From contig CM038218.1 of NCBI GenBank assembly GCA_021442155.1, positions 56,891,277-56,955,276 of the forward strand: a stretch of DNA of 64,000 nucleotides. The letters are read 5' to 3'. A model generated the notes under the pieces. It made no database searches. It saw only the letters and a list, made by a program, of their open reading frames with translations, and had not been told where the DNA came from. Below, piece after piece: positions 8,866 through 63,367 of this stretch (positions within the stretch are counted from its first letter, which is position 1; each line of letters begins with the position of its first letter). The translations under genes were made by a program, and so were the position numbers. Source of the stretch: Cymbidium sinense (taxonomy: Eukaryota; Streptophyta; Magnoliopsida; Asparagales; Orchidaceae).

Positions 8866-9335
8866 AATGGGTAGAACCTTGAGGGCAAGAATATCACCAT
8901 CAACTAGGATCATCTAGATTTGGCGGTGGAGAAAACTCGCAATGGTGGTAGGGGATCTAGAGGTGCTCATGGATATGGAGGTGGTGGTAAGAGTAGTGGC
9001 GGTTATGGAGGTAGGAGGGGTGACGGAGGTTACAACCGTGGTGGTAGCGGAGGGAGAGATCAAGGATATGATGGTGGATCCCGCTACTCTAGAGGCCAGG
9101 GTGGTTCTGATGGGAACTGGAGAAGCTGAGGAACGATCAATCCGATCTGCTGCTTATGGAACTGTGTCTTTATAATAGAGATGATTTTACTTATCTAGGG
9201 TTTTTTATTTGCTCTATGGGTGCTCATTTTTTATCTATATCATCGCTTGTAGCATAGAAAACTGGGGCTGATACTTTGGTTGATGAAATCAACATGAAGT
9301 AATGTTGAATCTAAATTTGTTCTCTATTAAAAAAA
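8866..9335 (+). pseudogene. GR-RBP 3' gene fragment, copy B
   Basis: The source gene encodes a plant class IV glycine-rich RNA-binding protein: an N-terminal RRM and a Gly/Arg/Tyr-rich tail, acting on RNA in nucleus and cytoplasm. Only the end is here. The last RRM segment (consensus over the copies NGQNLDGRNITINQAQSRS) starts at 8866. The glycine-rich tail is open from 8920 to the stop at 9127-9129 (GGYGGRRGDGGYNRGG, ending GSDGNW). The 3'UTR (9130-9327) ends in an A-tract at 9328-9335. RNP1 and RNP2 are absent, and a short deletion near 8915 shifts the frame. It shares private variants with copy D (GGTGCTCATGG, AACATGAAGTAATG). Confidence 0.9.
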
Positions 9336-10581
9336 GAAAACCTTAAACATAAAACCCTAAACCTACTAGTTTACTTAATTTTTTTCTTAAAAAAAAAACC
9401 TAAAGCCTATATCGTAAACCCTAAACCCAAAAACCTAAACCCTACACCCTAAACCTTAATCCCTAAACCATTAAACTAACCCTAATTACTAAACCTTAAA
9501 CCCTAAAGCGAATCCTAAAAAATATAACCCAAAACCCAAAAGAAACCTAAAAATATAAAACCAACTCACTAAAACAACTAAACCCTAAACCCTATAAACC
9601 CTAAACCCTAAACCTAAACCTCCACTATTATACCATAAACCCTAAACATAAAACAAAACCCTAAACCCTACCTAAACTTTTAAAGTGATCCTAAAAACTA
9701 AGTGAGCTAAATAAGATAAAATAAAATGAATAAATCAAAATCATAAAATAAAATTAAAATAAATATAACTAAACATGCACTAAAAAAATAATATAAATCA
9801 AACTAAATAAATAAAATAAATAAAACCACCTAGATAAATAAAAAACCTAAAAAAAACTATGCCTAAAATAAAATAAAATAAACCTAAAATAAAATATAAA
9901 ATCTAAAATAAAAAACCTAAACCTAAATAATAAACCTAAAATAAAATAAAAAAAATAAAATAAAAGCTAAACTAAAAAAACCTAAAATAAAATAAATAAA
10001 CTAAAATAAATAAAATAAGCTAAAATAAATAAACCTAAAAATAAAATAAACCACTAAACTAAACTAAATAAATAAAATAAATAAATAAACCTAAACTAAA
10101 ATTATAACTTAAAATAAACCTAAAACCTAAACCTAAAAATAAAATAAAATTTAAACATAAACCTAAAATATAAAACCTAAACATAAAATAAAATAAAATA
10201 AAACTAAACTAAATTAAAATAACCACTAATGATAAACTAAATAATAAACCAAATAAAATAAAATAAACCTAAATAAAATAGATGAAATAAACTAAAATAA
10301 ATGAAGATAACTATATAAACTAAATAAACCTACCTATGGGTTTTTTTTTAAAGAAAACCCTAAACTCTAAACCACCAACCATAAACCTTAATCCTAAACC
10401 CACAAAACCAAAACTTCAAAACTAAATACTAATCCTTAAACCCTAAATCCCTAAACTATAACCCTAAACCCCAAACCTAAACTCCTAAACCATAAATCCC
10501 AATCCTAAACCTAAACCTAGAGTAACTTAAAAAAATTAAAAACTAAACTAAACCTAAACCTAATTAACTAGCGTAAACCAT
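9336..10581 (+). repeat. Spacer B-C: heptads, A-rich array, heptads
   Basis: About 9336-9690 is CCCTAAA heptads with a boundary motif (CCTACTAGTTTACTTAATTT) at about 9360-9380. About 9691-10340 is the A-rich array. A second, altered motif (ACCTATGGGTTTTTTTTTAA) sits near 10331-10350, then heptads run to the fragment. No gene. Confidence 0.75.
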
Positions 10582-11022
10582 AAGGATAAACCTTGATAGG
10601 AAAATCACCATTAACCACATTTATCTAGATCTGGAGGTGAAACGGCTTATCATAGTGGTGGTGGGGGATCTAGAGGTCTTGGTGGATATGGAGGTGGTGG
10701 TGATGATGATTATGGAAGGAGGCGATGGAGGTTACATTTGTGGTGGTGGTGGGAGGGATAGATCGAGATATGTGGTCGATCCACCTTTCGAGAGAGGTCA
10801 TTCGATGAGCCTTGTATAAATTGTAAAATGGCCGATCCGATCTATTGTTTATGGAACTATGTCTTTATAGTAGAGATAGTTCTACTTATCTAGGGTATTT
10901 TATTTGCTATATGTGTGCTCTTTTTTGGTTTATGTCGTGTATCTTAGAAAACTTACGGTCTTCTTGGGTTGATGGAATCAAAAGAAGAAATGTTGGCGAA
11001 TTTGTTCTTTATTAAAAAAAAC
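10582..11022 (+). pseudogene. GR-RBP 3' gene fragment, copy C
   Basis: Same fragment as at 8866, more decayed. The start reads AAGGATAAACCTTGATAGGA, having lost part of the GGGCAGAAC word. The glycine-rich part has several deletions and the GR-RBP stop region is rearranged (TTCGATGAGCCTTGTATAAA). The 3'UTR from about 10830 is clear and ends in an A-tract at 11013-11022. Private variants (AAATCACCATTAACCACATT, GGTATTTTATTTGCTATATG) pair it with copy E. Confidence 0.85.
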
Positions 11023-11165
11023 CATAACCATAAATCCTAAACCACTAACCTAAACCCAAAACCAAAACTCTAAACCCTAAACCTTAAACACTAAACCCTA
11101 ATCCTAAACCCTAAACACTTTCCCTAAACTATAAACCCTAAACTAATCCTCCACCTTAAACCCTA
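11023..11165 (+). repeat. CCCTAAA heptads after copy C
   Basis: Degenerate telomere-type heptads that grade into the GC-rich block at about 11160. Confidence 0.75.
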
Positions 11166-11880
11166 AAATCCTTCCCTAACTGGACCACTAACTACCTACA
11201 CCCTGGGCCCTAAACTACACTCCCTAGGCCCTGGGCCCTAAACCCTGGGCCCTGGGCCCCTGGGCCCTCCACTCTGAAACTCCCTGGCCCTCACTGATGA
11301 CCTGGGCCAAATGCCTTACTGAGTCCTGATGACGCTGGGCCCTGGGCCTAAACTCTGACCTGGGCCCTGGGCCTAAATCTAATGGGTAATAAAGATAAAC
11401 CTAGCCCTAAGCATCCTAAACTCTAAAGCCCCAGGCTGACCTGGGCCACTAAAAGGCCCTTAAAGTCATGGGCTCAGATCTGACCTGAGTGCTGGGCCCT
11501 GGGCCCTGACTACTGACCTGGGCCACCTACCCCACCAGGCCCTGGGACAGACTGGGTTAAGGCCCTAGGCTGACTTAAATCTGGGCTCTGGGCCCTGGGC
11601 TGCTTAAACATCCTGGGCCCAAACTGGGCCTGGGCCCTGGACCTGGGCCCTGGGCACCCCACTCTAGGCTAAAACTAGGCTCTGACCTGGGCTATGACCT
11701 AGGCCACTGACCCTGACCTAAAAAAACCCTGACCTAGCCATCTCCCTGGGCCCTAGGCCAAATAACCTAGGCCTGGGCCACTGAGCCACTGAGCCCTAAA
11801 CTAAGGCCAAATCTCTGGACCATGGGCTCACTGGGCTCTAATCATGACCAACCCTACCCAAATACACTGACCTGGCTAAA
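11166..11880 (+). repeat. CCCTGGG GC-rich heptad block 2
   Basis: The clearest place to see CCCTAAA turning into CCCTGGG in heptad register: at 11200-11275 CCCTGGG, CCCTAAA and CCCTAGG units alternate. Rich in self-complementary GGGCCC. Confidence 0.85.
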
Positions 11881-12244
11881 CTTAAAAGATAAATAAATGA
11901 CCTACCTAAGAAAATAAAATAAAACCAAAAAAAAAAATATAAATAAAATAAAGAAAATAAAAAAAAGCTAAAAATAAAAATAAAATAAAACTAATAAAAT
12001 AAAATAAAATAAACTATAAAATAATAAAAAAACACGAAATAAAAACTTAAACTTAAAAAACAAACCTAAACTGAAAAACAAGTAATGCCTAAACCCTAAA
12101 CTAAAAAAAGCTCTAAACTTAACATAAAAATAAAATAAACAAAATAAAATAAAGCTAAACCTAAACTAAAATAAATAAAATCTAAACTAACACTTAAAAT
12201 TTACTAAACTCTAAAACCTAATAAACCTAAACTTGAACCCTAAG
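11881..12244 (+). repeat. A-rich array upstream of copy D
   Basis: AATAAA/CCTAAA words; the last ~135 bp are nearly identical to the array before copy B. Confidence 0.75.
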
Positions 12245-12673
12245 AATGGGTAGAACCTTGAGGGCAAGAATATCACCATCAACTAGGATCAGTCTAGATT
12301 TGGCGATGGAGGCGAAGGCGGAGGCAACAGTTATCGCAATGGTGGTAGGGGATCTAGAGGTGCTCATGGATATGGAGGTGGTGGTAAGAGTAGTGGCGGT
12401 TATGGAGGTAGGAGGGGCGGAGGATTTCTAGAGGCCGGGGAGTTCTGATGGGAACTGGAGAAGCTGAGGAATGATCAATCCGATCTGCTGCTTATGGAAC
12501 TGTGTCTTTATAATAGAGATGATTTTACTTATCTAGGGTTTTTTATTTGCTCTATGGGTGCTCATTTTTTATCTATATCATCGCTTGTAGCATAGAAAAC
12601 TTGGGGTGATACTTTGGTTGATGAAATCAACATGAAGTAATGTTGAATCTGAATTTGTTCTCTATTAAAAAAA
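12245..12673 (+). pseudogene. GR-RBP 3' gene fragment, copy D
   Basis: Sister of copy B. It keeps the early part better (GGAGGCGAAGGCGGAGGC at about 12308-12325) but lacks roughly 75 bp of the glycine-rich tail, joining GGAGGGGCGGA directly to TTTCTAGAGGCC near 12425. Stop region and 3'UTR are as in B; A-tract at about 12665-12673. Confidence 0.88.
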
Positions 12674-13896
12674 GAAAACCTTAAACAAAAAACCCTAAAC
12701 CTACTAGTTTACTTAATTTTTTTCTTAAAAAAAAAACCTAAAGCTTATATCGTAAACCCTAAACCCAAAACCAAAATACACCCTAAACCTTAATCCCTAA
12801 ACCATTAAACTAATTACTAAAACCCACCCTAAAAACTAAAACATACCTAAAACCCACCACCTAAAAAGGCTAAACCCAAACTCTAAACTAAACCCTACTC
12901 CACCTCCCTAAACCTAAACCTCCACTATAACTAAACCCTATTATACCATAAACCTAACCACAAACCTAAACCCTGGGCCCTCCGCTAAAAAATCCTAAAC
13001 TAATGATAAATAATAAATAAATAAACATAAATCAACATAAAGATATAAATGAAACATAAACTAACATGCACCTACTTAAATAATATATAAAATCAAAACT
13101 AAATAAAATAATAAAATAAATAAAAACCTAAATAAAATAAATAAAATAAAAATAAAAATAATAAACCTAAAATAAAATAAAATAAAATCTAAACCTAAAA
13201 AAAATACCTAAATTAAAAATAAATAAAAAATAACCTAAACTAAACTAAAAAAAAAATAACCTAAAATAAAATAAAACCTTAAACTAATAATACTAAAATA
13301 AATAAAAAAAAACCTAAAATAAACTACCTAAACTAAACCTAAACCTAAACTAAAAAATAAATAAACTAAAAATAAATACCTAAACTAAAATAACTTAAAA
13401 TAAACTAAAAAACCTAAAAAAAAAAATAAAATAAAATTTAAACATAAACTAAAATAAAATAAAACCTAAACATAAAATAAAATAAAATAAAACTAAACTA
13501 AAATTAAAATAAACCTAAACCTAAACCTAAGATAAACTAAAATAAATAAACCAACAAAATAAAATAAAAATAAACCTAAATAAAAATAAAGATGAAATAA
13601 ACTAAAATAAATGAAGATATATATAAACTAAATAAACCTAAACCTATGGGTTTACTTAGTTTTTTTAAAAAAAAACCTAAACTCTAAACCCTAAACCTAA
13701 ACCATCCAAAACCCAAACCCCAAAACCCTGGCTTAAATCCTAAACCACAAACCTAAAGCCTAAACCAATCTTAACCCACCTAAATCCTAAACCTTAAACC
13801 TAAACCCTAACCCCTCTAAACCATAAATCCCAAATCATAAACTAAACTAAGTAACTAAAAAAACTCTAAACCTAATTAACCTAAATGTAAACCATA
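12674..13896 (+). repeat. Spacer D-E: heptads, A-rich array, heptads
   Basis: Boundary motif CCTACTAGTTTACTTAATTT at about 12699-12718 inside heptads to about 12985; A-rich array about 12986-13640; second motif (CCTATGGGTTTACTTAGTTT) at about 13643-13662; heptads to copy E. Confidence 0.75.
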
Positions 13897-14355
13897 AGGA
13901 TGGGCAGAACCTTGATAGGAAAATCACCATTAACCACATTTAGTCTAGATCTGGCGGTGGAGGTGAGGGCAGAGGCGGCGTTATCATAGTGGTGGTGGGG
14001 GATCTAGAGGTGCTGGTGGATATGGTGGTGGTGGGAGCAGTGGTGATTATGGAGGCCAGAGGAGCGATGGAGGTTACAGCTGTGGTGGTGGTGGAGGAGA
14101 GATCAGAGATATGTGGTGATCTACTACTCGAGAGGCGAGGTCATTGATGAGACTAGATAAATTGTAAATCGATCATTGCTTATGGAACTATGTCTTTATA
14201 GTAGAGATAGTTCTACTTATCTAGGTATTTTATTTGCTATATGTGTGCTCTTTTTTGGTCTATGTCTTGTATCTTAGAAAACTTACGGTGCTACTGGGTT
14301 GATGGAATCAAAAAGAAGAAATGTTGAAACTGAATTTGTTCTTTGTTTAAAAAAA
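13897..14355 (+). pseudogene. GR-RBP 3' gene fragment, copy E
   Basis: Sister of copy C, better preserved: GGGCAGAACCTTGATAGGAA start, glycine-rich words GGAGGTTACAGCTGTGGTGG at about 14070, 3'UTR from about 14170, A-tract at about 14348-14355. The stop region is rearranged as in C (TTGATGAGACTAGATAAATT). Confidence 0.87.
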
Positions 14356-15851: not shown

Positions 15852-16335
15852 AATGGGCATGAACCTTGACGGTAGAAACATCACCATCAATAGGCTGTCT
15901 AGATCACGGTGGTGGAGGTGAGAAGGAGGTGCGATTATCACAGTGGTGGTGGGGGATATGGAGGTGCTGGTGGACTTGGAGGTGGTGGTCGGAGCAGTGG
16001 TGGTTATGGAGGTAAGAAGAACGATGGAGGTTATAGTTGTGTTGGTGGCGGAGGGAGAGATGAGGTATATGATTGAAGATCTCGCTATTCGAGAGGCGGG
16101 GGTGGTTCTGATGGGAACTAAAAAAATTGAAGAATAGTTGATCCGATCTGTTGCTTATGGAAATGTGTCTTTATGGTAAAGATGGTTCTACTTATTTAGA
16201 GTTTTTTATTTGCTCTATGGCTACTCTTTTTTGATCTATGTCATCGCTTGTGTCTTAGAAAACTTGGGGTGCTACTTGGTTGATGAAATTAAAAAGAAGA
16301 AATGTTGAATCTAAATTTGTTCTCTATTAAAAAAA
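15852..16335 (+). pseudogene. GR-RBP 3' gene fragment, copy F
   Basis: Same fragment. Glycine-rich words run from about 15910 to 16110; the GR-RBP stop region reads GGGAACTAAAAAAATTGAAG. 3'UTR about 16140-16327, A-tract at 16328-16335. Frameshifted. A 64-codon frame at 15943-16137 is the +1 shadow of the glycine repeats, not a gene. Confidence 0.88.
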
Positions 16336-26250: not shown

Positions 26251-28777
26251 CTCCAACCTGACCCAAGGGGTTATTGGATCGGACATGACTGATGGGAGGT
26301 AAAATCACCTAGCCCTACCTATTGGAGCATGTGAAACCCATAGGACACTAATGATTCCTCCTTGACAGCCACCTCCACACCTTAAACCAACGAAGCTGAG
26401 CCAACTCACCTCCTCCCTACCACCCATGGCACCCTGAGATGGCCGGATGGAAAATAGAAGCCAAACCTGATCCTACAATCTGATCAAGATGAAGGGGTAT
26501 CTGACTCCTCATTTCCACTCAAACACACACACAAATCATTCCTCGAGCCATACCCAAGATGAGAGCCATTCCCTAAGCTCCCAATCTCATTCCTTGATCA
26601 AAAAATTCCATTCCCATCCATTTTGAAATAGGACACTCCCATTTTTTACCTAACTTCCCCATTTCTCCATCAAACTCAGATTAACTTTGCTCACACCTTC
26701 CCCAGGGCTTGTCAAGCAAGAACAAATCATCTCCCAAGCTTCGAGCATTAGATGGGGACTTTGATCAAAGTTGAGCTATCATCGTTCATGGCATTCTGAG
26801 CGAACATCAAGGAATTGATCTAATTGCTACTAAAGAGGGCTTCATCTCCACTAGATGAAGCTTCTTCAATCATTTGAGCTGCCAGTCTTGAGCTCCGATG
26901 AGGTATGCTTCCAAAGCTTATTCTTAGGAAAAAATGGGTTGGGGCTTTTTGAAGAAAACTTTCATCTCGTGTGATCTTGATTGTTGGATCCCCTCCGATC
27001 GATGCCATGAAGGTGTGGGATACTTTTGGAGTTGATTCGAGCTTGGGTAAGCTCAAATCAAGTGAGAAATGTCGGTCAGACTCCATTCTCCCTCACTCAC
27101 ATGATGTTCGATCACGCACTGTCCATTTCACATGTTTAAAATGGACGGTGATTTGATCTGTCAGATCGATTTGATCTATCAGATCGATTTGATTTGATCC
27201 TATTAAGCTGTGGGATTAATCAAAGCCATCTGATCTTAGATGGATGATGAACAAGAAAGCGCATCTGTCATCACCATGTTGGCATTGAGTCAGATAAGTT
27301 TAAGTAGCCAATCCCAAGGCACCACATGGCGCCAATAGGATTAAGCTTAATTAATCATTTTTAATGGATGAAACTTCTAAAAATCATAGAACATCATAGA
27401 AAAATAAAAACAAAATGTAAGTAAATACTCATTTTAATAGTATTTTAGAGGAGAATTAATTAAAAATGATCTTAACTAATTTTGAATAGTAATTCAAGTT
27501 TAATTACAAAATTAATTAGCTTAATTACTCCTTAATTACTTGAGCAATTAATGCCAAATTTTATGGGTTAATTTAATGGGATGGCCTGTGCCTCCCATAA
27601 TTTTCATCGAATTCATTGCTCACTTAATTAGGAAAATTGACTATTAAACCATAACTACTCTTTTAAGTTAATTAATGATTAATTAATCACATGAACAGTA
27701 ATAAATTGGTTAATTAAGTTTATTAATCATTGTTCAATAGTAAGTGAACTAAGGAATAGGGTTGGAACCCCTTTCCATAAGTTCATTTCACCATTTTTTA
27801 AGATGAAATTAATTAAGATTTAACTATTTAATTAAATCACTTAATCAACTTGATATCATAATCACATCAGACCTTAATTAATTAAATCATAGGGTAGATC
27901 TTTAGGTGTTTAAAATTAAAGGAGTTTAATGAAATTATGGTTAGTCCACATGTGTGGGAAAACCATAAGAGTAATTAAGGAAGTCCCAATCTAATTAAGT
28001 ATTAATCAGGTGCCAATTGCATTAGGCCTTTTATTTCCTAGGATCATTGTAAGTTTATTTTCCATGCATATCATGTTGGCTCATAATTATTTAGTTATTT
28101 ACTTTAAGGTGACATAAGTAAGGGTAATTAATTAATTTGATTAAGAGTTCAACTTAATTAACCCATAAAATCAACTTAATTTCATTTCTGTAAATTAAAT
28201 CAAATCACTAATGTGGGAACGGGTTTAAAACAATAAGTGATGATTTCTCTTCTCCTCTTTAAATAAAATTAAATCCAAAACTTAATTAATAAATAAGCTT
28301 TGGTTTGCTTTAAATAATCTTATTTCATTTGATTGTCCTTAAGAACTAGTTTGGTTGAATGAATCACATGCTTATATTTGATTGTCCTCTTTCCAATCAT
28401 GTTAAATTTTGTATGTCATTTGAATTCATGCATCCATCTTTTCAAAATCAAGTAAAATAAAATGGAATTCCTTTATGTAAGCTTGCATGTGTTGATTTAA
28501 TTTAATATATATGTGCCTATTATCACTATTAAATCCAAATGAATTTTTCAAAAGCTTATAAATGAATAATAATATGTGTTATAATGTTAGGTATAAATAC
28601 ATAAGAAATGCATGTGCTTATAGCTTAAGTGTATGAATGTTGAGTTCTCTTTCCTCTATTCATGTGTTGATTTATATAAGATTGAATGGTAATGGGTATA
28701 TAGTCTAGACATCCCAAGAACATAAGGCTTTAGCAAGCCCCAAGGAGGTCATTTGATTACCTCACTTCCCTGGTTTA
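26251..28777. other. Unassigned block, probably LTR or UTR of the gypsy element
   Basis: 26251-27300 is unique-looking with mixed composition; 27300-28777 is AT-rich with many TTAATTAA words. An 88-codon frame on the - strand (26820-27086) has no recognisable domain. By position (upstream of gag-pol on the - strand) it could be the 5' LTR and leader, but I found no matching second LTR at 16.6-20.6 kb. Confidence 0.35.
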
Positions 28778-28840
28778 TTACTTGGTTGAAGAAATCAAAA
28801 AGAAAAAATGTTGAATCTAAATTTGTTCTCTGTTAAAAAA
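28778..28840 (+). pseudogene. GR-RBP 3'UTR tail only
   Basis: Only the last ~63 bases of the fragment: TTACTTGGTTGAAGAAATCA through AATGTTGAATCTAAATTTGT to an A-tract. The upstream part is cut off by the 16.6-28.8 kb block. It breaks within about 10 bases of the place where the inverted tail at 3010-3065 breaks. Confidence 0.8.
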
Positions 28841-30090: not shown

Positions 30091-31034
30091 ACCTGATCTA
30101 AATAAGACCTAAAAATAAAATAAATAAAACCTAAAGATAAATAAATAAAACCAGACTAAGACCTAAACCTAAACTAAAGAAATAAATAATAAAAAATAAA
30201 CTAACAAAATAAATAAAACCTAAACTAAACTAAAATAAAATAAACCTAAGAATAAAGTGCTCGATAAAATAAACTAAGCGAAATAAAATAAAATAAATCT
30301 AAAACAAAATAAAATAAAAACTAAATAAAAACTTGAACCTAAATAATAAACCTTAAAATAAAATTTAAAAATAATAAATAATAAAATCTAAATCCTAAAT
30401 TATAAAAAAAACCTAAAAATAAAAAAAATAAAATAAAACCTAAACCTAAACTATAAACTAAACTAAAATAAATAAAATATACACCTAAACTTAAACCTAA
30501 AGTAAAATTAAGTAAAATAAACAAACTAAAATAATCCTAAACCTAAAATAAAATTAAACCTATTAAACCTAAAATAAAACCTAAACCTAAAAGAAAATAA
30601 AACCTAAACCTAAAATAAAATAAAATAAAACTCATTTAAAAAAATAACCTAACCAGACCTAAAAAACTAAATATATAAACCTAAATAAATAAAACCTAAA
30701 ATAAATAAACTAAAATAAAATAAAATAAAATAAACTAATTAAACTAAAACCTATGGGTTTTACTTAATTAAAAAAAAACCATAAACCCTAAATCCTAAAC
30801 CCTAAACCCTAAACCTGATCCTAAACCCTAAACCCTACCTAAACTCTAAAAATCTAAACCCTCAAACTTTAATGCTAACTGCCCCAATACCCCTAAACCC
30901 TAAACCTTAAACCCTAACCTAAACCAGACACTAAACCCCAAACCCTAAACCTAAAGCTAAAGTAAATAAATAAACTAAAAATAAACCTAAACCCCAAAAA
31001 CCTAATAAACTTAAACATAAACCTAAACCCTAAG
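30091..31034 (+). repeat. A-rich array, boundary motif, heptads before copy G
   Basis: A-rich array to about 30750; motif CCTATGGGTTTTACTTAATT at about 30751-30770; CCCTAAA heptads and the fixed CCTAATAAACTTAAAC lead-in follow. Confidence 0.75.
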
Positions 31035-31500
31035 AATGGGCAGAACCTTGATGGCAGGAACATCAGTCAACAAGACTCAGTCTAGATCTAGCGATGGAGG
31101 AGAAGGTAGTGGTGGCGGTTATCACAGTAGTGGTGGGGGATCTAGAGGTACTGGTGGATATGGAGGTGGTGGTCGGAGTAGTGGTAGTTGTGGGAGGCGG
31201 GCGAGAGGTTCTGCCGTGGTGGGAAGAAGGGAGATGGGGATATGATGGTGGATCAGATACTCGAGAGGGGTGGTTGATGAGGCGAAGAAATTGAAGAACG
31301 GCCCATTTGATCTACTACTTATGGAACTGTGTAGTAACAGTAGAGACAGTTCAAGTTATCTAGGGTTTTTGATTTGCTCTATGCCTGCTCAATTTTTATT
31401 TATGTCATTACTTGAGACTTAGAAAACATAATGTGTTACTTGATTGATGAAATTGAAAAGAAAAAATGTTGAATTTGAATTTATTCTCTGTTAAAAAAAA
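31035..31500 (+). pseudogene. GR-RBP 3' gene fragment, copy G
   Basis: Same fragment. An open stretch 31036-31245 covers the RRM end (with TQSRSSDGGE) and GSRGTGGYGGGGRSSG before a frameshift; the stop region is rearranged (AGGCGAAGAAATTGAAGAAC). 3'UTR from about 31300, A-tract at about 31493-31500. Shares 3'UTR variants with copy H (GCTCTATGCCT, ATTTATTCT). Confidence 0.88.
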
Positions 31501-33880: not shown

Positions 33881-34470
33881 AAGATCTCTGACCCTCAGAG
33901 CCCTGACCCCAGCCACTGGGCTACAGGCTCTGAGCTGCTGCCCTGGGCCCCTGGGCCAGGCCTGACCCCAGGCAGGCCAGACCCAGACTGGAGTGAGCCA
34001 CTAAGATCTTGGATCTGATCCTGGGCCCTGACCTGACCCTGGGCCCTAGGCCTGACTGAGCCCTGGGCTCAGACCCTGACCTGGCCCTTACTGACCCTGG
34101 GCCATGGGCCATGGGCCCTGGGCCCTGGGCCCTGGGCCCTAGGACTGGGCCCTGGGCTGGGCCCAACTTAGGCCAGGCTCACTGGCCAACTGGGCCTGGG
34201 CCACTGGCCCTGAGCCCTGGCTGGCCTCTACAGGCCCTGGGCCAGGCCGGGACCCTGCTTGCCTGATGGGTGACCTGACCCTGGGCCATGAACTGGTGCT
34301 AGTGAGCCCAGCCACAGGCCTGGGCCACTGGGCCCTAGGCCAAGGCTGGGCCCCAGGCCCTGACCTGACCCTGGGCTCTGACCTGGGCCTGGGCCTTGGG
34401 CAAACCCCTGAGTCCAGGCTGAGGCTGAGTGTTGACCTGGGCCCAAGACCATAAATGCTTAAACTGACCA
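33881..34470 (+). repeat. CCCTGGG GC-rich heptad block 4
   Basis: Purest stretch of the variant heptad (34090-34140: GGGCCCTGGGCCCTGGGCCC). Both strands show frames of Gly/Pro/Gln/Ala only (33921-34471); these are low-complexity by-products. Confidence 0.85.
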
Positions 34471-35870
34471 CACCATAAACAAATGCTAGCTAAACCTAAA
34501 CTGGCCAAAATAAAATAAATTAATGAAGATAAACACTGACTGACTAAAAAATAAACTAAAGATAAATAAAAGACTAAATAAAGAATGAAATAAATTTAAA
34601 TATGATAAAATAAACTAAGATGGATAAAATAATATAAATAAATGAGACCAGACTTTTAGGTTAAACCCTACCCTAAACCCTAAAAGATCATACCACCCAG
34701 GCCCTCCTGGGCCCTAAACTGGGCCAGGCCTAAACGTTTGGACCCTCCCCCAGGCTTAGGCCCTAAAGCCCTGGGCCTAAGCCCTAAACAGACCCTGGGC
34801 TCTGGGCAGTGGGCCATCACCTAGGCCTTACATAACAAGATCCCTGGGCACAGGCTGGATCCTAAACTAACTGGGCTAAGTGACCTGACCATGGGCACCT
34901 CTGAGCCACTGGGGCCCATTCTAAAGGCCTCTCCTGGGCTAAAGGCCTGAGGCCCTGGGCTGGCCCTGACCCTGAGGCCATGAGCCGCCCAGACCCTAGG
35001 CCAAAACCCTAAACAGGCCTGGGCCTAGGACCCTACTTAAATCTTGCAAAACCTAAACCCTGTAAATAAACTTAAAATTAAATAAATAAAGAATCTAAAG
35101 CAAAATAAAATAAAATAAAATAAAAAGCTAAACTAAACTTAAAAATAAAATAAACTTAAGAATAAAGGTCCTAAATAAAATAAAACTAAACTTAAAATAA
35201 AATAAAAACCTGATAAAGATGAAACTAAAAACTTAAACCTAAAAAATAAACCTTAAAATAAAATGTAAAAAAATATATAATAAAACCTAAATCCTAAATA
35301 AAAAAAACCTAAACCTAAAATAAAAATGTACATAAAATAAACCTAAACTAAATAAAATAAAACACAAGCAAACTAAACTAAATAAATTAAATAAACTAAA
35401 ACAAACTAATCCTAAACCAAAAAAACCTAAAATTAAACTAAACCTAAAAAATAAAAAAATAAAACCTAAACTTAAAAATAAAATAAAAAAAACTAAATTA
35501 AAATTAAACCTAAAACCAAAACCTAAAATAAACTAAAATAAAACCTAAACTAAGATAAATAAACCTAAAATAAATAAACTAAACTAAATAAAATAAATCT
35601 AAATAAAATAAATAAACTAAATAAACTAAACTACTGGGGTTTACTTAATTAAAAAAACATAAACCCTAAATCCTAAACCCTAAACCCTAAACCTACAATC
35701 CTAAACACTAAACCGAAAACCCTAAACCATAAAAAATCCTAAACCCTAAACCCTAAATGCAAAACTGAAAACCTTAAACCCTAAACCTAAAGCTAAAGTA
35801 ACTAAATAAATTAAAAAATAAACCTAAACCCTAAAACCTAATAAACTAAAACCTAAATCTAAACACTAAG
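34471..35870 (+). repeat. A-rich, GC-rich, A-rich arrays and heptads before copy H
   Basis: Short A-rich run to about 34660; mixed CCCTAAA/CCCTGGG words about 34661-35060; A-rich array to about 35630; boundary motif ACTGGGGTTTACTTAATTAA at about 35634-35653; heptads and lead-in to copy H. Confidence 0.75.
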
Positions 35871-36351
35871 AATTGGCAGAACCTTGATGGTAGGAACATC
35901 ACAATTAACAAGACTCAATCTAGATCTAGCGATGGAGGTGAACATAAAGGCGATTATCATAGTGGTGGTGGGGGATCTAGAGGTGCTGGTGGGTATGGAG
36001 GTGGTAGTAGGAGTAGTGGTGGTTGTGGAGGTAGAAGGAACGATAGAGGTTATAACCATTGTGGTGAAGGAGGGAGAGATTGGGGATATGATGGTGGATC
36101 CCGCTACTCGAGAGGCCAGGGTGGTTCTAATGGGAACTGAAGAAATTGAAGAACAGTCAGTTCGATCTACTGCTTACGGAACTCTGTATTTACATTAAAG
36201 ATGGTTCAAGTTATCTAAGGTTTTTGATTTGCTCTATGCCTACACATTTTTTATCTATGCTATTGCTTGAGTCTTAGACAACTTGGTGTGTTACTTGCTT
36301 GATGAAATCGAGAAGAAATGTTGAATTTGAATTTATTCTATATTAAACAAA
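35871..36351 (+). pseudogene. GR-RBP 3' gene fragment, copy H
   Basis: Same fragment, sister of copy G. Start AATTGGCAGAACCTTGATGG; the glycine-rich part is long and little deleted; stop region GGGAACTGAAGAAATTGAAG. 3'UTR about 36150-36340, with the A-tract interrupted (TATTAAACAAATAATG). The 104-codon frame at 35884-36198 is the +1 Val-rich shadow of the glycine codons and runs past the true stop. Confidence 0.88.
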
Positions 36352-47813: not shown

Positions 47814-48230
47814 AAGAGGTAGAACTTTGATGATAGGAACATCAGCGTCAACCAGGTTCAGTCTAGATATGGCGATGGAGGCGAAGGCGGAGACGGTGGT
47901 TATCGCAGTGGTGGTTAAGGATATGGAGGTGTAGGTGGATATAAAGGTGGTGGTCGGAGCAGTGGTGGGAGGCGAGGAAGAAGATCAGGGATATGATGGT
48001 GGATCTGTCGAAAGGGGTTACGGTGGGAACTAGAAAACGAGATCAGTCTGTTGCTTATGGAACTGTACCTTTACATTAGAGGCGGTTCTAGTTATCTAGG
48101 GTTTTTGATTTTTTATATGTGTGTTCATTTTTTATCTATGTCATTGCTTGTGTCTTAAAAAAGATGGTGTGTTACTTGGATGATGAAATAAGAAAGAAGA
48201 AATGATGAATTTGAATTTTCTCTAAATAAA
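47814..48230 (+). pseudogene. GR-RBP 3' gene fragment, copy I
   Basis: Shortest full-span copy. Start AAGAGGTAGAACTTTGATGA; GGTCGGAGCAGTGGTGG at about 47953; then a deletion of ~60 bp to GAGGAAGAAGATCAGGGATA. The stop region is altered (GGTGGGAACTAGAAAACG). 3'UTR from about 48030; the A-tract has degraded to TCTAAATAAAGAGTG. Confidence 0.85.
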
Positions 48231-50140
48231 GAGTGAACCAGACTAAACCTAAACCTAAACCCTAAACCTAAACCACAAACCCTAAACCCTAAACCATAAC
48301 CTAAACCCACTAATCCTAAAATACTAAAACTTAAATAAACCCTACTAATCACTAAATCACAAACATAAACCTAAATCCCTAAACTAAAGCTAAAAATTGA
48401 AACAAAACTAAATAAAATGAAAATTAAAAAATAAAAAAAAATTAAAATTAAAATAAAATAAAATAATATATAATATAAAACCAAAATTAAAACCTAATCT
48501 AAACCTAAACCTAAAAGAAAGAAAATAAAATAAAAATAAAAAAAATATATAAATAAAAAAAAAAATAAAATAAAATAAACATAAAATAAAAATAATAAAT
48601 AATAAATAATAACCTAAACCTAAAATAAACTTAAAATAAATAAAGAAAACCCTAATGAAAAAAAAAACCTAAACCAAAAATTAAAAAATTAAATAAACTA
48701 AACAACTAAACTAAAGTAAAATAAATAAAACTTAAACCTAAACCCAGAATGAACTAAACCTAAACCTAAACCTAAATAAATAAAGTAAAATAAAATAAAA
48801 TAAATAAACTAAAACTATTATAAATAAATCCTAAAATAAACTAAAATAAAATCCTAAAACCTAAACCTAAAAAAAAATAAAAGAAAAAACCTAAACCTAA
48901 ACCTAAAATAAAAAATAAAACCTAAACCAAAATAATAATAAAGTAAAACTAAACTAAAAAAATAAACCTAAATCAAGGCACGGTGAAATAAATAAACCTT
49001 AACCTTTGGGTTAACTTTTGTTTAAAAATAAGATATTATTATTAAAATAAATTAAATTAAAAATCCTAACCTACCTAAATCTAAACCACGGACCCTAAGG
49101 TTACAACTACTCTAGGCCAGAGTTAAAGACCATAAATCCTAGGCCACTGAGTACAGTAATGGCAGTAAAGTACTTGACAGCCCAGGCCACTACTCCTAGC
49201 ACCCCCACCCTACCTACCCAGACCTACTTAAAACCTAGGCTAACTAAATAAAACCTAAAAATAAAATAAATCAAAAGGCACTGAAACCTAAATAAATTAA
49301 AAGAAAATAAAAATGAAACTCAAAAATAACCTAAACAGGCCTAAACCTGGCATAAACCGGATAAGATGGATGAAATAAAGATAAAAATAAATTAAATAAA
49401 ATAAATAAAACTAGTACAGATAAAATACCCAAATAAATAACCTAAATAAAATAAAAACTTGTGAGTTAAAAAAAATATACCTAAAAAATAAAATAAAAAC
49501 TTAAACTTAAATAAACCTAAAAATAAAACCTAAAATAAAAATAAGACTAAACCCTAAAATAAAAAAATACACTAAACTAAACAAAATAAAATAAACAAAA
49601 ATGTAAATTAAAATAAACTAAACTAAAATAATAAAATAGAACCTAAACCTAAATAAACTAAACATAAACCCTAAACTAATTAAAATAAACTAAACTAAAA
49701 ATAAACCTAAACCTAAACTAAAAAATAAACCTAAAATAAAAAAACTAAACATAAAATAAAATAAAATAAAACCTAACTTAAGCCTAAAATAAATAAAAAA
49801 ACTAATCTAAAAAATAATGTTAAAATAAAATTAAACTAAAGAAAACATAAACATAAACCTAAAACTAATAAAATAAGCTAAAATAGAAACCTAAACTAAA
49901 ATAAAGAAACCTAAAATAAATAAACTAAACTAAATATAAACAAAATAAACCTAAATAAAAATAAATAAATAAAATTAATAAAATTAATAAAAATAAACTA
50001 AATAAAAAACCTATTAGTTTAATTAATTTAAAAAATAAAAAAAAACCCTAAACCCCATAAATAATAAGCCCTAAATCCTAAAACAAACACTAAACCATAA
50101 ACCTAAACCAACCTAAACCCTAAACCTACAACCCTAAATG
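48231..50140 (+). repeat. Heptads, A-rich, degraded GC-rich stretch, A-rich, heptads
   Basis: CCCTAAA heptads to about 48390; A-rich to about 49000; motif remnant (CCTTTGGGTTAACTTTTGTT) about 49003-49022; a short non-A-rich stretch with CCCTAAGG and CCAGGCCACTAC words at about 49070-49260, possibly a worn-out GC-rich block; A-rich to about 50000; motif CCTATTAGTTTAATTAATTT at about 50010-50029; heptads to 50140. Confidence 0.7.
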
Positions 50141-52475: not shown

Positions 52476-52934
52476 AAAGGGAAGAACCTTCACGAAGAAT
52501 AACACTCAACCAAGCTTCTAGATCTGGTAGTGGGCAAAAGCGAGGTGGCTTATCATGGTGGTGGGAGAACTAGATATTGGTGGATATAAAGGTGGTGGTA
52601 TGAGCAGTGGTGGTTATAGAGGTGGGAGGAGCGACGGAGGTTACAACCGTAGTAGTGGCAGAGGGCAAAATCAAGGATATGATGGTGGATCCCATTATTC
52701 AAAAGGCTGGGGTGGTTCTGATGAGAACTGGAGAAACTGAAGAATGGCTATGATCCACTTATGGAACTATGTCATTATAATAGATGGTTCAAGTTACTAG
52801 GGTTTATTATTTTTCTATCGTGCTCATTTTATATATATGTTCAGCTTGTGTCTTAGAAAACTTAGTGTGTTACTTGGTTGATGAAATCAAAAGAAGAAAT
52901 GTTGAATCTTAATTTATTCTATTAAAAAAAAAAA
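52476..52934 (+). pseudogene. GR-RBP 3' gene fragment, copy J
   Basis: The glycine-rich half is open in the correct frame from 52555 to the original stop at 52738-52740 (GGYKGGGMSSGGYRGG, NQGYDGGSHYSKG, ending DENWRN). The RRM end (from 52476) is frameshifted and lacks DGR. 3'UTR about 52741-52920; A-tract of about 13 (52922-52934), the longest of all copies. Confidence 0.9.
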
Positions 52935-54470
52935 CCCATAAAAAAACTACTAAACTAAACCTAAAACCTAAACTCTAAACCTTAAACCATAAACCCTAAA
53001 CCCTAAACCCTAAACCCTATAAACTAAAAATAAACCCTAAAACCTAAAAACCTAAACCCAACAAACCTAAAACTCCCAACTAAACTAAACCCTAAACCAA
53101 CCTAAACCCCAAACCTACATTTAAAATGCTAAAACCAAACCCAAACTAAATAAAACTTAAAAGTAAAATAAATAAAAAACTTAAACTAAAAAATAAAATA
53201 AATAAATAAAATAAAAACTAAAAAAACTACCTAAACTGTAAAAAATAATAAAATAAAAAAATAAAACTAAAATAAAATAAATAAAAAAACTAAAATAAAA
53301 TAAAAATAAAACCTAAATAAATAAAAAAACTAAAACCTAAAATAATAAATAAAATAAAAACTAAATAAAAATCTAAACCTAAAATAAACCTAAAAAATAA
53401 ATAAAAATAAAACCTAAACCCTAAACTAAAAAAAAAAAACTTAAACTTAAAAAAAATAAAATAAACCTAAATGTAAACTAAAATAAACTAAACAAATAAA
53501 ACCTAAACCTAAACCTAAACCCTAAACCTAAACCTAAACCTAAACTAAAAACCTAAATGTAAATAAAACTTAAAATAAAATAAATAAATAAACTAAACCT
53601 AAATAAAAATAAAAAAAAACTAAACTAAATAAACCTAAACCTAAAATAAAATAAAATAAAATAATGAAAATAAACTAAATTAAAATAAATAAAACTAAAC
53701 TAAACTAAAAAAATAAAATAAACCTAAGAATGAAAAACTTAAATAAAATAAAACTAAATGTAAATAAAAATAAAATAAACCTAAATAAAATAAATAAATA
53801 AATAAACCTAAAATAAACCTAAAAGTAAAACCTAAAATAAATAAAAAAATAAACCCAAACCCTAAACTAAAATAAAACTAAACCTAATATAATAAATAAA
53901 TAAAAAGAAAATAAACTTAAACCTAAACTAAGTAAACAAAACTAAAATAAATAAAACCTAAACTTAATCCTAAAATAAAATAAACTAACATAAACCTAAA
54001 GTAAATAAAATAAAATAAACTAAAAATAAACTAAACCTAAACTAAAAATAAAACCTAAAAATAAGCCAAAAATCAAAACCTAAAACCTAAACCTAAAAAT
54101 AAAATAAAAACCTAAACCTAAACCTAAAAATAAAAAATAAAACCTAAACCTAAAAATTAAATAAAATTAACTCAACTAAAAAAACCTACTAAACCTAAAC
54201 CTAAAAATAAACTAAAATAAAAAAAACATAAACTAAAATAAATAAACCTAAAATAAATCAACTAAATTAAACAAAGATAAAAAATAAACCTAAATAAAAA
54301 TAAAAAATAAAATAAACTAAAATAAATAAAAAATAAACTAAGTAAACAAAATAAACCTAAACCTACTGGTTTACTTAATTTAAAAAAAAAACCCTAAACC
54401 CTAAACCCTAAACCCTAAATAAACCCTAAACCTAAAGCATAAACCCTAAAACCCTAAACCCTAACCCTAA
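52935..54470 (+). repeat. Heptads, long A-rich array, boundary motif, heptads
   Basis: Heptads to about 53140; A-rich array to about 54355, with runs of perfect CCTAAA hexads at 53500-53550; motif CCTACTGGTTTACTTAATTT at about 54362-54381; CCCTAAA heptads to 54470, where the copia element inserted. Confidence 0.78.
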
Positions 54471-56683: not shown

Positions 56684-56899
56684 ATGATGACAAACTAATG
56701 TTGGGTATTGATCTTGATGAAGGTTGACCTTTCATCATAGTTTTGAAAAAAATTTCTCTTCTTAAAAAAAATTTATGCACAAGAGATGAATATTGTTGCT
56801 CCCCCTAAATGTATGCATGAAATAAACTTAATACTAAGCAACATTTTACTCTTCTCCCCCTTTTGACAATATCAAAATGTGAGAACAAAATACATATAG

Positions 56900-58658: not shown

Positions 58659-58689
58659 TATTCTCTTATTGAAAACTCTATAAGCTCTA

Positions 58690-59470
58690 CTAGAGAGTAT
58701 CCTAAGAAAATATTATCATTTGATTTGCAATCAAACTTACCTAGATGCTTTTTCCATTATTCAAAATAAAGCATTTACATCCAAATACATGAAAGTGTTC
58801 AATCTTAGGCTTCTTTCCAAAAAATAATTCATAGGGTGTCTTCTTCAAAATTGGTCTAACATAGATCCTATTCATCATATAACATGCATTCTACTTTTAA
58901 AAAATGTTTTGGCAATTTATACTCATCAAGCATAGATCTACTTAATTCAATTAATATTCTATTTTTTCTTTCTACTACTCCATTTTAATGGGGAGTTCTA
59001 GGTGTAAAAAAATTATGTCTAATCCCATGTTCATCATAATAATCCTCAAATAATTTATTTTCAAATTCACCACCATGATTAGTTTGAACCCTATTAATCA
59101 AAAGGCCTTATTCTCTTTGAATATATTTAGAAAACTTTCTAAACTAACCAAAAACATCATCCTTATAAGTTATGAACAAAATCCAAGTATATCTAGAGAA
59201 ATCATCAACAATCACGAAATCATAATTTTTACCACCTAAGCTAGTGGTGCTAATTGGACCAAATAAATCCATGTGCAACAATTCTAGAGGTCTAGAAGTA
59301 GAAACAATATTTTTTACTTTTAAATGAGCTTCTAGAATGCTTGCCATGAATACATGCATCACAAACATAGTTTGAATGAAAATTTAATTTAAGAAATCCA
59401 ACTACTAAATCAAGTTAAGTAATTTTATTGAGTGTGTGCATGTTAATATGACAGTCTTCTATACCATAAC
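58690..59470 (-). pseudogene. Copia integrase
   Basis: Open part 59144-59368 has RPLELLHMDLFGPIS, with the first catalytic Asp, and IVDDFSRYTWI. In another frame NGVVERKNRI (about 58965-58995) carries the catalytic Glu, preceded by a stop in place of the usual Gln. The zinc finger before it is degraded. Confidence 0.83.
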
Positions 59471-59533
59471 CATATATCATCTTGAGTGCTTTTAAAATAA
59501 AGTAAAAATTCAAATTAACATCATGAAAGCTAT

Positions 59534-59848
59534 CTATAAATATTTTATGTCTTTTCCTACTAAGAAAACATTTTCATTATTTTTTATAATACAATATGAT
59601 GTATGAAATACTACATTCAAACCTTTATCACATAATTGACTAATAGAAATTAAATTATGCTTTAATCCTTCTACTAGAAAAACTTTATCTAAAGTGATGG
59701 AATTCTTACTAATAGAACCAATGCCAATGATCTTACCCTTTGCATTATCTCCATATGTAACAAATCCTCCATCACTTGATTCTAAAGTTGTGAATTTATC
59801 TTTATCTCTTGTCATATGTCTTGAACATCCATTGTCCAAGTACCACAT
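59534..59848 (-). pseudogene. Copia protease, active-site DSG changed to DNG
   Basis: 104 open codons starting at WYLDNGCSRHMT. Copia proteases use D-S/T-G; here the middle residue is Asn (codon at 59831-59833), which fits loss of activity. The following LVEGLKHNLISISQLCDKG is the usual pre-integrase region. Confidence 0.82.
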
Positions 59849-60390
59849 GCCTTCTTTGATTTTGCTTTGAAGGCATTCCTACAAAAGAAAATCACATGTT
59901 AACTTTTGGAACCCAAACATGTTTGGGTCCACATTCTAAATTTGAAGCAAGATATCTAGCATGTGTGGTTTGTGTAGTGCTTGTACCTTTTGGTACCCAT
60001 ACATAAGAAGATTTCTAGTATTTTATAATTTATGTGCATAAATCAAATGAAATATGCCCTTTTTATCATAATAGTTGCACCAACATTAGTGTTTTGCATA
60101 TGGCTTACGATAATTATAAGGTTTATGAGTGGGATGTGTATGATGCAAATAATTTTTATTAAATGTTTTACTTGATGAAGCATTATAATGAACTTGTGAT
60201 TTCAATCATAATTCTAATCTTGCTTTTAACAAGATATTCTCTTTCAAGTTTAGATACATGTAAGGAACAATTTAATAAAGAATTATTTTACTTTTAAATT
60301 ATCACATTCTTTTTAAATCATAAAATTCATATCTAAATTTTTTATATTTTATGGTTTTGTATTTTCTTTTTAATTTTTTATATTCAATAA

Positions 60391-60710
60391 CTAAATCATT
60401 AAAGCATCATCTAATTCATCATAAGATATATCATTACATACCTCTTGAGAATCTAAGTCAGATTCTCCATTTTCCATAAGACATATGTTGACCTCTTCAT
60501 CGGATGAGCAAGTACTTGATTCATTTGAATCTAGGTTGGCCCATAAAGCCTTCTTCTTCTTCTTATGGTACTTTTTCTCCTTCATATTTTTTCTTCTTTC
60601 CAATCTCTTTCTTCTTTGATTCAACAAGTTTTGGACAATCACCTCTTTTGTGTCCGGGCTTGTTACATTGGTAACAAATGTTCCCTTCACCTATAGAAAT
60701 TTCTTAGTTT
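60391..60710 (-). pseudogene. Copia gag remnant with CCHC zinc knuckle
   Basis: ICYQCNKPGHKRGDC, a complete CCHC knuckle, lies at about 60635-60680 in one frame. The continuation with a Lys-rich run and an acidic SSTCSSDEEVN segment is open in another frame (60391-60690). Only ~60 bp separate the knuckle from the 5' LTR, so the N-terminal gag region, several hundred codons in this group, has been deleted. Confidence 0.83.
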
Positions 60711-60769
60711 GAAATTTATAGTTTTAGATTTTTATACCTTTGATTCTTCTTAAATTTTAAATTGATAGC

Positions 60770-62788
60770 TGATATTAAAAATTTTAAAGTTAAATCTTAA
60801 ATTTAAGTTTTTAGAAAATTAATTTTAGATTATATAATGATAAGATACAATTCTGTCTTTCAAAAAGTGATTAAAGTAGAGAGACAATTACATAATTTTT
60901 TTTAGTTTATAAACCCCAAAATCTTACATAAGATTTGACTAAGAATCCACTAAATGAAAAAAATAGCTTACAAATAGTATCTCCATATAGTATACAAATA
61001 AAAATATGTACTCTACAAATAGTACAACCCCAATATAAATTTTCATGAAAAGAAAAATACAAAATAATAAATTTTGATTAAATCTCTCACAAGTATACCA
61101 AGTTTTCAAATAGTGATCTCACAACATATATGATCACTTACAACTTAAAATTTTCAAAGATAAAATGTTCATAATATTGATAAGAAATAATAAAATAAAT
61201 CTATTAAAGTGATCTTACTAAGATGTTTATGTTACAATTTGTAGACTAATATAAAAATGATTTCAAAATAAATTCACAATATTCTTTTGCACAATAAAAT
61301 AAATTTCAAAAAGGAATAATTTATTTTATTTTAAAAAAAGATGCTTTCAATTAATGCAATGATCACAAAATACTTAAATTAAAATTAATTATATGATAGA
61401 TCTAAATAGGCTAGTAAGCTTTTAATTAAAAGAGAGATCAAAAAATGTGAAATAATTTAAAGCACAATTTAATTTAAAATGTTTAAATATATTTCTAAAA
61501 AATAGATCTAAGAATAAATGATATTTCAAATAAGACTAATGAAGAAATATTTAAAAACCAAAAAAGAAATTTGTAGGATGATAAAATTTCAATAAGTTGA
61601 AAAGAATCCTACAAACTATCACAAGTTTTCACAAAAAAAAAAAATGATGAAAAACTTGAGGTAAAAACTTTAATTTGATGTCAAGACTAATCCACCAAAA
61701 AAAATATAAATTGGAAAGAATAAATAGATGGTGAAAATAGTATGAACAACTAAAATGATTAAGATCAAGAAAACAAACTCAAGTAATTTGAAAAGCTCAC
61801 TTAGTTGAATATGTTTGGTCTTTCAATTTGGAGAAACTAGGAAAATCTGATTTCTCTTAGATTCTTGGAGAATTAAATAATGCTTTCATGAAGAGAATGA
61901 GATATAAATATAAGAAGGTCATTTTGAATTATTTCAAAATATATTATTCTAACATCATTTTATCATATATAATTTAATATTTAATAAAAATATAATTTAT
62001 ATTAAATAAATGTTAAACTCAAATAAATTCAGCTATTCACATGGGAAAAAATAATAAAATATGGCTCTTAATATATTCAAGAATGTATGCATTCATTATT
62101 AAAATCCTAATGTTTCAAAAGTCATAATAAATTCAATTTTAGTCAAGCGTGGATCATGTAACCTATAATTAAAGGAAAAATCCAAGGAATCCATTAGAGA
62201 TAAAATCAGGTATAAATTCCTTGATTATAAAATGACTTTGGCTAAAATACAAAATTCAAGATATTTTTGTTAATTTTGAAATATGACATTTAAATATTAT
62301 GATATAATTTATATATAATCATACATATGTTAGTTATCATATAACCTTAAAATTAAATTAAAATATTTATTTATTAAGTATATAAACTAATTACAATTAA
62401 TAATCATAATTTATTACCATTTCTTATTTTGACTATTCAAATGCTGTAAAAACATAATTGAATATTAATTAGATAGATTTATATAAATTAACCTAATATC
62501 ATTATTTCAAATAAAATAAAAATAATAGTTAAGTTGTGAGCAAATTGATTCATGCCAATGAATCATATGAATTTTATAGTTATAAATGCATATAACCTAA
62601 AATATTGTATCTTTAATACATTATCATTTTGATCTTTCATTCTTTAAATCAAACATATTATGAGATGTATTGGATATGTAATTATTAATTATATGTGAAA
62701 CACATAAAACATACATTAGAACATCCAAAACATTCATTTGTTATCATTAAAATTGATTGGATTGAACATGAGGCTCATTAAGCCAACA
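60770..62788 (-). repeat. Copia 5' LTR
   Basis: About 2.02 kb against ~2.16 kb for the matching part of the other LTR. The difference comes from many scattered small deletions rather than one. It ends at TTAAGCCAACA (62788). The gag-side edge starts at TGATATTAAAA, lacking the last ~37 bp of the LTR. Confidence 0.85.
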
Positions 62789-62884
62789 TAACCCCAAACC
62801 CTAAACCTAAAGTTACTAAATAAATTTAAAAATAAACCTAAACCCTAAAACCTAATAAAGCTAAACCAAAACCTAAACCCAAAG
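62789..62884 (+). repeat. Heptads and lead-in to copy K
   Basis: CCCAAACCCTAAACC heptads, then AGTTACTAAATAAATTTAAA and CCTAATAAAGCTAAACC, the fixed stretch found before most copies. Confidence 0.8.
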
Positions 62885-63367
62885 AATGGGCAGAACCTTC
62901 ATGGCAAGAAAATCACCATCAACCAGGCTCAATCTAGATTTGGTGATGGAGGCAAAGTGAGGCGGTGATTATCGCAGTGGTGGTGGGGGATCTAGAGGTG
63001 CTGGTGGATATGGAGGTGGTGGTCAGAGCAGTGGTGGTTATGGAGGTGAGAGGCATGACGGAGGTTATAGCCGTGGTGGTGGTGGAGGGAGAGATTGGGG
63101 ATATAATGGTGGATCCCACTACTAGAGAGGCCAAGTTGGTTCTAATGGGAACTGGAGAAACTATAGAATGGTCGATCCGATTTACTGCTTATGGAACTGT
63201 GCCTTTACAGTAGAAACGAATCTAGTTATCTAGGGTCTTCCTATTAGCTCTATGTGTGCTCATTTTTTATCTATGTCATTGCTTATGTCTTAGAGAACTT
63301 GGTGTGTTACTTGGTTGATGAAATTGAAAAGAATAAATGTTGAATCTAAATTTGTTCTCTAAAAAAA
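62885..63367 (+). pseudogene. GR-RBP 3' gene fragment, copy K
   Basis: Least deleted copy. It reads nearly through in the GR-RBP frame from NGQNL, with QAQSRFGDGG and GGGGSRGAGGYGGGGQSSGG, to GSNGNWRN, but has TGA near 62957 and TAG near 63123 and ends NWRNY by loss of the stop. 3'UTR about 63160-63350, A-tract 63361-63367. The 82-codon frame 62965-63213 is the +1 shadow. Confidence 0.9.

Follow-up and report, generated by a model that had tools for sequence, protein, structure and literature searches.

How does a fragment of a protein-coding gene come to recur within telomere-like DNA? The question is raised by a 64,000-nucleotide stretch of the 3.526-Gb Cymbidium sinense assembly (C5:56891277-56955276; here, the window), in which a ~480-bp module occurs as ten full plus-strand copies, one inverted copy, and two 3′ tails (Table 1). 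Judged by its similarities, the module corresponds to the 3′ portion of a gene for a glycine-rich RNA-binding protein (GR-RBP), 3′ untranslated region (3′UTR) included. We consider it very probable that the module is a processed (retro) pseudogene fragment that was joined into heptad DNA and amplified within a composite satellite.

Copies were detected using blastn and a profile hidden Markov model (HMM) built from the ten plus-strand copies, with some starts shifted by hand by up to 3 bases, and the count given in a first-pass annotation of this DNA was recovered by both. The ten plus-strand copies matched the HMM from position 1 to 4 with E values of 1.1e-105 or below, which on these scores excludes chance. 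From NGQNLDGR... to ...GSDGNWRN-stop, the window consensus encodes the end of a plant GR-RBP, in two pieces of clean frame. A hand-made composite of the consensus matched GR-RBPs from many flowering plants, with no clear best genus among the matches listed (158 proteins at an E value of ≤0.001 among the 7,999 candidates scored, 120 of them listed). The first-pass annotation had placed all copies within 8866-63367, a range that misses the inverted copy and the minus-strand tail. Its common start point applied to the ten plus-strand copies and not to the tails, which hold only the last ~70 bp, and the A-run is of <7 in the 35871 and 47814 copies and the 28769 tail. The tails at 3074 (minus strand) and 28769 (plus strand) begin ~3 bases apart in the module (HMM positions 418 and 415, respectively), and their adjoining DNA differs, being LINE-like (long interspersed nuclear element; by eye) at 3074.

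Probable parent gene and junctions of the module

As the first-pass annotation had suggested, the parent gene was sought in the same genome, and a locus on C13 (L038, a 2.5-kb piece) was recovered. A search with the RRM part yielded at least 90 matches among the 150 of 213 candidates scored, most of them 30 to 55% alike; two neighbouring matches, 65% and 81% alike, at C13:36950260-36950555 were read as a one-intron GR-RBP gene. L038, the one locus on which the parent comparison rests, is likely the parent gene of the module. It has two exons and an intron at ~475-563 (gt...ag, by eye). Its alignment with the module (466.7 bits) runs from 657 (AATGGG, mid exon 2) to 1146, with the 5′ edge at GGGGATG/AATGGG (slashes mark junctions) in exon 2 and the 3′ edge at TTTGTTCTTTGTT, past the stop codon. 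The consensus of the copies agreed with L038 at 254 of the 282 positions in the coding part and at 177 of the 202 in the 3′UTR, and single copies were 74 to 85% alike to it.

The 3′ junction carries the argument for a retrocopy. Where the parent reads TTTGTTCTTTGTT/TGATCATTCTG, the copies have an A-rich tract at the place of TGATCATTCTG; letter by letter, TTCTTTGTT/TGATCATTCTG in the parent is opposed to TTCTYTRTT/A-run in the copies, with TTCTTTGTTT + A7 in the 13899 copy. All 34 module rows that reach HMM position ≥484 continue into an A-rich tract and then into heptad-type or other satellite DNA. Because the HMM itself contains the A-tract, this selection is biased toward it, and the other 8 of the 42 rows were therefore also read: no continuation of the parent was seen in these 8. 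Five of them stop at the insert or at an edge of the window or of a locus, L009:6872 has a deletion reaching to heptads, the 47814 copy has decayed at its end, and L019:5661 is without the 3′ half. An A-run of ≥7 was present at the module end in 29 of the 36 copies reaching it, against a background of 20 of 3,627 twenty-base windows in heptad blocks. With blastn (E ≤ 1e-3), 0 matches each were found in the window plus fetched loci (355,884 bases, some of them shared by overlapping loci) for the 3′ flank of L038, its 5′ region, its exon 1, its intron, and the part of exon 2 upstream of the module. An A-tract where the parent has TGATCATTCTG, with no parent sequence past either edge, marks the tract, on the letters compared, as the trace of an untemplated poly(A) tail and the module as a 5′-truncated retrocopy; as in processed pseudogenes, the poly(A) tract is absent from the parent (one locus).

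The 5′ break points to one origin. Thirty-two of the 42 rows start at HMM position 1 to 6. Of the ten others, two are the tails, one is the inner part of the split copy, and seven, outside the window, start later; all seven except L032:3954 (start position 10) were read. L028 joins unrelated DNA, L032:9347 keeps the original junction ahead of an internal deletion, and the 5′ end of L026 is decayed behind a lead-in; L032:4972, L010:7384, and L010:9238 join A-rich or heptad DNA and may be deletions. Fifty-three sites differ between the consensus and L038, and at 12 of them (two at the A-tract) the parent base is present in 0 of 30 copies. This fits one shared founder; a change in the parent could also explain it. 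Within the window, the 5 places matching AAAGTAACTAAATAAATT with ≤2 mismatches and the 4 exact matches to CCTAATAAACC all lie just upstream of modules, and across the fetched loci 23 of the 32 rows having a 5′ end carry this lead-in (loose motif test). The lead-in that the first-pass annotation described as shared is thus common without being universal, as the 15852 copy is without it. Of the two observations that had been named there as contrary to a single capture, parent sequence continuing past the A-tract was looked for and did not appear in the window or fetched loci, and differing 5′ breaks were confined to the ten rows listed above. The proposed single capture of a GR-RBP mRNA copy in heptad DNA gains support from the parent junctions and the common 5′ break.

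Several points weigh against a retrocopy. Intron loss gives no test, as the module falls wholly within one exon and the 5′ break is downstream of the parent intron, and with heptads on both flanks a target-site duplication cannot be told apart. A-runs of ≥7 are common in A-rich blocks (594 of 4,745 windows) and also come after a boundary motif (motif R, described below), before heptads; within the window alone the A-tract would therefore be weak evidence, and it was the parent gene that settled the question. With one RRM locus compared, a closer paralogue reading TTTGTTCT.TRTT and then a genomic A-tract is possible. The same observations (a single exon, A-runs after motif R, and other GR-RBP-like loci outside the comparison) could also speak for capture of the gene piece as genomic DNA, whether by break repair or by a gene-capturing DNA transposon, with the A-tract incidental to its amplification. 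We regard such a capture as very unlikely, since the homology has a single end point, after which comes an A-tract without counterpart in L038, no downstream parent sequence occurs in the fetched loci, and A-runs of this length are rare in heptad blocks.

Composite satellite and spread of its units

The retrocopy module is set in a mosaic of CCCTAAA heptad (period 7), A-rich (period 5 to 6), and GC-rich blocks. Period 7 was found in 4 of 4 heptad blocks tested, and these CCCTAAA/TTTAGGG heptads are internal, 56.9 Mb into the 200.8-Mb C5, as interstitial telomeric repeats are. CCCTGGG was the commonest heptamer class in 6 of 7 GC-rich blocks tested; the strongest lag was 7 in four of the blocks and 6 in the other three. 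CCCTGGG (reverse complement, CCCAGGG) equals CCCTAAA with its three A's changed to G, and similar GC-rich blocks occur in L011 on C1. Motif R often marks the change from A-rich to heptad DNA. Using an HMM built from eight of its eleven sites in the window, the motif was detected at E values of ≤0.0054; it lies ~240 to 340 bp before five of the ten plus-strand modules (spacing by hand), follows the 8866 and 12245 modules, and occurs at other places that have no module. Motif R might itself derive from the end of a further polyadenylated transcript. Satellite makes up about half of the window (~32 kb; hand-set borders), the remainder being LINE, long terminal repeat (LTR) element, and other inserts. 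The polarity of the array switches at 3064-7235, with TTTAGGG to the left, CCCTAAA to the right, and LINE-like and other DNA between; a 100-base N run occupies 51785-51884.

The unit is repeated in tandem. Five successive copies (8866-15852) are spaced 1.65 to 1.95 kb apart, and types A and B recur at ~3.3 to 3.4 kb. It is also shared by arrays on several chromosomes: in eight 3.5-kb loci on C1, C3, C5, and C9, picked by similarity to the 8866 copy and including it, flanks are 71 to 90% identical from ~390 bp before the module through the motif R just after it, with a second motif R and a type-B lead-in ~1.2 kb further on. The copy alignment and tree that the first-pass annotation had called for were run on 30 near-full copies. 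Types A (11 copies), B (4), and C (2) each formed a 100/99 clade with members on at least two chromosomes. The order A-B-C is found at 12245/13899/15852 on C5 and at 4423/6439/8537 in L009 on C3, and the matches between the two (74 to 75%) together span 11883-16310 of the window. L010 (C9) and L011 (C1) have a block of two units in common, each unit grouping with its counterpart on the other chromosome (100% bootstrap support). On this evidence of unit order and tree grouping, multi-unit blocks have been copied between chromosomes for C5/C3 and C9/C1, a result that covers part of the family. Local duplication took place as well, since three pairs of window copies (8866/12245, 10580/13899, and 31035/35871) group together in the tree. 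In 42 of 42 rows, which are not independent events, the module reads in sense along the C-strand of the heptads beside it. By these alignments the module has been multiplied inside a larger multi-kb, multi-type satellite unit on many chromosomes, and common flanks, the A-B-C order on two chromosomes, and the single orientation bear out the earlier suggestion that it was amplified together with heptad DNA.

This picture has its own contrary evidence. The eight flank loci are the best matches to one type-A copy, one of them being the window's own. A pairwise flank test within the window gave modest results: in the nearest 70 bp upstream, 11 of 45 pairs exceeded the 95th percentile of the control, with 4, 2, and 1 of 36 farther upstream and 3, 10, and 0 of 45 downstream. 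Thirteen of the 30 tree copies, including all 7 from random regions, fall outside types A, B, and C, and the cross-chromosome block evidence therefore covers only part of the family. The presence of many copies on many contigs (in the first module search of the genome, at least 40 matches, 40 of 9,759 first-look candidates having been scored) could also be taken to mean that the module is a mobile element inserted many times independently. We find that highly improbable, given the flanks and unit order common across chromosomes, the single orientation relative to heptads, and the lack of coding constraint.

Decay, abundance, and neighbouring elements

Substitution was about equal at the three codon positions (0.144/0.161/0.149), and 59 of 215 distinct changes were synonymous versus 24% expected (p = 0.30). 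Relative to the majority consensus, every one of the 10 window copies had between 1 and 7 indels of a length not a multiple of three (the smallest counts are uncertain, the consensus being out of frame at one gappy stretch), and stop codons were present in 7 of 10. The module is thus without coding constraint and carries disabling mutations, as processed pseudogenes do. Persistence through a coding or regulatory function of the GR-RBP fragment is scarcely tenable: the consensus does restore a GR-RBP-like reading in two pieces of frame, but the codon-position rates are equal, the synonymous share is as expected without selection, the frames are disabled, and no sign of function beyond satellite sequence was found for the module. 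At least one transition was seen at 32 of 34 CHG and 16 of 18 CG sites versus 102 of 169 CHH sites (p = 6e-6; sites of related copies are not independent); for A and T sites the counts were 44 of 120 and 31 of 140, respectively. A CHG/CG transition excess is the pattern expected of methylated plant heterochromatin. The module copies look like sequences decaying neutrally, as their substitutions show, in heterochromatin that the transition excess suggests is methylated.

Abundance, for which the first-pass annotation had proposed a genome copy count, was estimated to an order of magnitude from 20 fetched of 60 random 10-kb regions drawn on four contigs. Under a crude 250-bp bin rule, 61,000 of 200,000 bases (~30%), in 10 of the 20 regions, were satellite-like; 11 module matches lay in 5 regions, half of the satellite-like regions being without a module. 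Resampling of regions gave 15 to 46% satellite-like sequence and 15 to 105 modules per Mb, i.e., about 5x10^4 to 4x10^5 module copies if the four contigs represent the genome. One of six contig ends fetched (the start of C1) had the module.

Two RTE-type LINE fragments in the window are apparently a second captured sequence amplified with the satellite, as they have a common truncation point and the units around them are 73.5% alike over ~2 kb. The element with direct end repeats lies between heptads and the lead-in of the 62885 module, and was therefore probably inserted after that unit existed. Gypsy and RTE open reading frames had their best named plant matches in orchids (Phalaenopsis, 63%; Dendrobium, 75%); one RTE match at 92%, filed under the bacterium Chromobacterium, was taken for plant contamination.

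Table 1. Module copies, satellite blocks, and other elements in the window
Feature	Position	Strand	Basis or remark
Putative GR-RBP retrocopy module, type A	8866..9335	+	blastn, HMM, tree
Module, type B	10580..11020	+	HMM, tree
Module, type A, 96% identical to 8866 copy	12245..12673	+	HMM
Module, type B, 3′ end TTCTTTGTTT + A7	13899..14354	+	HMM, tree
Module, type C, without lead-in	15852..16335	+	HMM, tree
Module	31035..31499	+	HMM
Module	35871..36351	+	HMM
Module, 3′ end decayed	47814..48232	+	HMM
Module, 11-A run	52476..52930	+	HMM
Module, LTR-bearing element directly before its lead-in	62885..63369	+	HMM
Inverted module, split by 186-bp insert (242-427), cut by window edge	1..598	-	HMM
Module 3′ tail adjoining LINE-like stretch (by eye)	3006..3074	-	HMM
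Module 3′ tail adjoining other DNA	28769..28840	+	HMM
Lead-in example, AAAGTAACTAAATAAATT ... CTAAG	35795..35870	+	
CCCTAAA heptad block example, period 7	30780..31030	+	
A-rich block example, period 5-6	53150..54340	+	
GC-rich (CCCTGGG)n block example	33900..34500	+	
GC-rich CCCTGGG blocks	11187-11890, 29690-30070, 33900-34500, 37200-37830, 38380-38740, 44310-44740, 46680-46960		
Boundary motif R example, GGTTTACTTAATT + A-run, before heptads	35629..35666	+	
Motif R sites	7326, 9359, 12697, 13640, 30747, 35629, 43335, 47488, 50007, 52134, 54359		HMM E≤0.0054
RTE-type LINE fragments, common truncation point ACACTCCA	42600-43250 and 45060-45712		
Longer RTE copies	31797-33171 and 38975-42060		
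Element, ~2.1-kb direct end repeats 82% alike	54471-62789		outer borders by eye

Proposed history and known systems

In the history that we propose, a polyadenylated GR-RBP mRNA was reverse transcribed, with synthesis halting within exon 2, and the 5′-truncated cDNA with its A-tail was joined into telomere-type heptad DNA. The retrocopy then became part of a composite unit of CCCTAAA heptads, A-rich blocks, and (CCCTGGG)n blocks, which multiplied in tandem and diverged, part of the family giving types A, B, and C, before multi-unit blocks were copied between chromosomes. Priming of the first cDNA strand may have come from the G-strand (TTTAGGG), its TTT annealing to the poly(A) tail, either at a telomeric end that had broken or in target-primed reverse transcription of the L1 type. 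The L1-type endonuclease site, TTTT/A, resembles TTT/AGGG; an open telomeric end would yield the same module orientation. Blocks could have spread by ectopic recombination or by reinsertion of circular DNA, which has been named for other interstitial telomeric repeats (in the part of PMC8621592 covered).

A more specific version is offered tentatively, and we hold it to be rather doubtful: the retrocopy would have been made at telomeric DNA, G-strand TTT having primed on the poly(A) of the host mRNA and TTTAGGG repeats having continued the 3′ end of the truncated cDNA (on the G-strand, this junction reads CCCATTC/TTAGGGTTTAGG). It would thereby have founded a satellite of ~15 to 46% of the genome (small sample) with ~10^5 gene-fragment copies, and motif R would be a second, shorter product.

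LINE-made processed pseudogenes show 5′ truncation, a poly(A) tail, and a 3′UTR extending to the poly(A) site, and the module is likewise 5′ truncated, with a 3′UTR and a poly(A) tail. Processed pseudogenes are normally single dispersed copies, whereas here one retrocopy was amplified as satellite DNA. The E3900 and D1100 repeats of the rye B chromosome likewise have a kb-scale unit with a captured coding fragment; there, the fragment derives from a retrotransposon on one dispensable chromosome, in contrast to a host-gene processed copy that lies among telomere-type heptads of many chromosomes. Capture of a retroposed sequence followed by tandem amplification is also how satellites arise from transposable elements (PMC9659126, in the part covered), but the source differs, being a cellular mRNA here. 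Interstitial telomeric blocks of Cycas contain heptad variants likewise expanded away from chromosome ends, including TTCAGGG, one T-to-C step toward the CCCAGGG of this satellite; the text covered mentions neither a gene module nor partner blocks rich in A, and no unit types in a set order (PMC9827991). In the main text, as covered, of the genome paper on Cymbidium ensifolium (2n=40, 3.56 Gb), 'telomer' and 'satellite' have 0 occurrences (PMC8633000). In Vanilla planifolia, AAG repeats abound in the part that is not endoreplicated (PMC13340410). No satellite with a GR-RBP fragment was found among the titles and abstract openings listed from open-licence literature, most subscription journals lying outside it. 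Compound satellites, telomere-like satellites, and processed pseudogenes are each known; nothing listed there combined the three, with a parent gene and on such an apparent scale.

A host mRNA copy with a known parent provides a one-origin marker within a telomere-like satellite, and birth, amplification, type formation, and interchromosome spread therefore become traceable as a family tree, which plain heptad repeats do not permit. False GR-RBP fragments may litter the gene annotation of such a genome. The module suggests that a host-gene retrocopy can attain satellite copy numbers, in what is apparently a major part of a 3.5-Gb plant genome.

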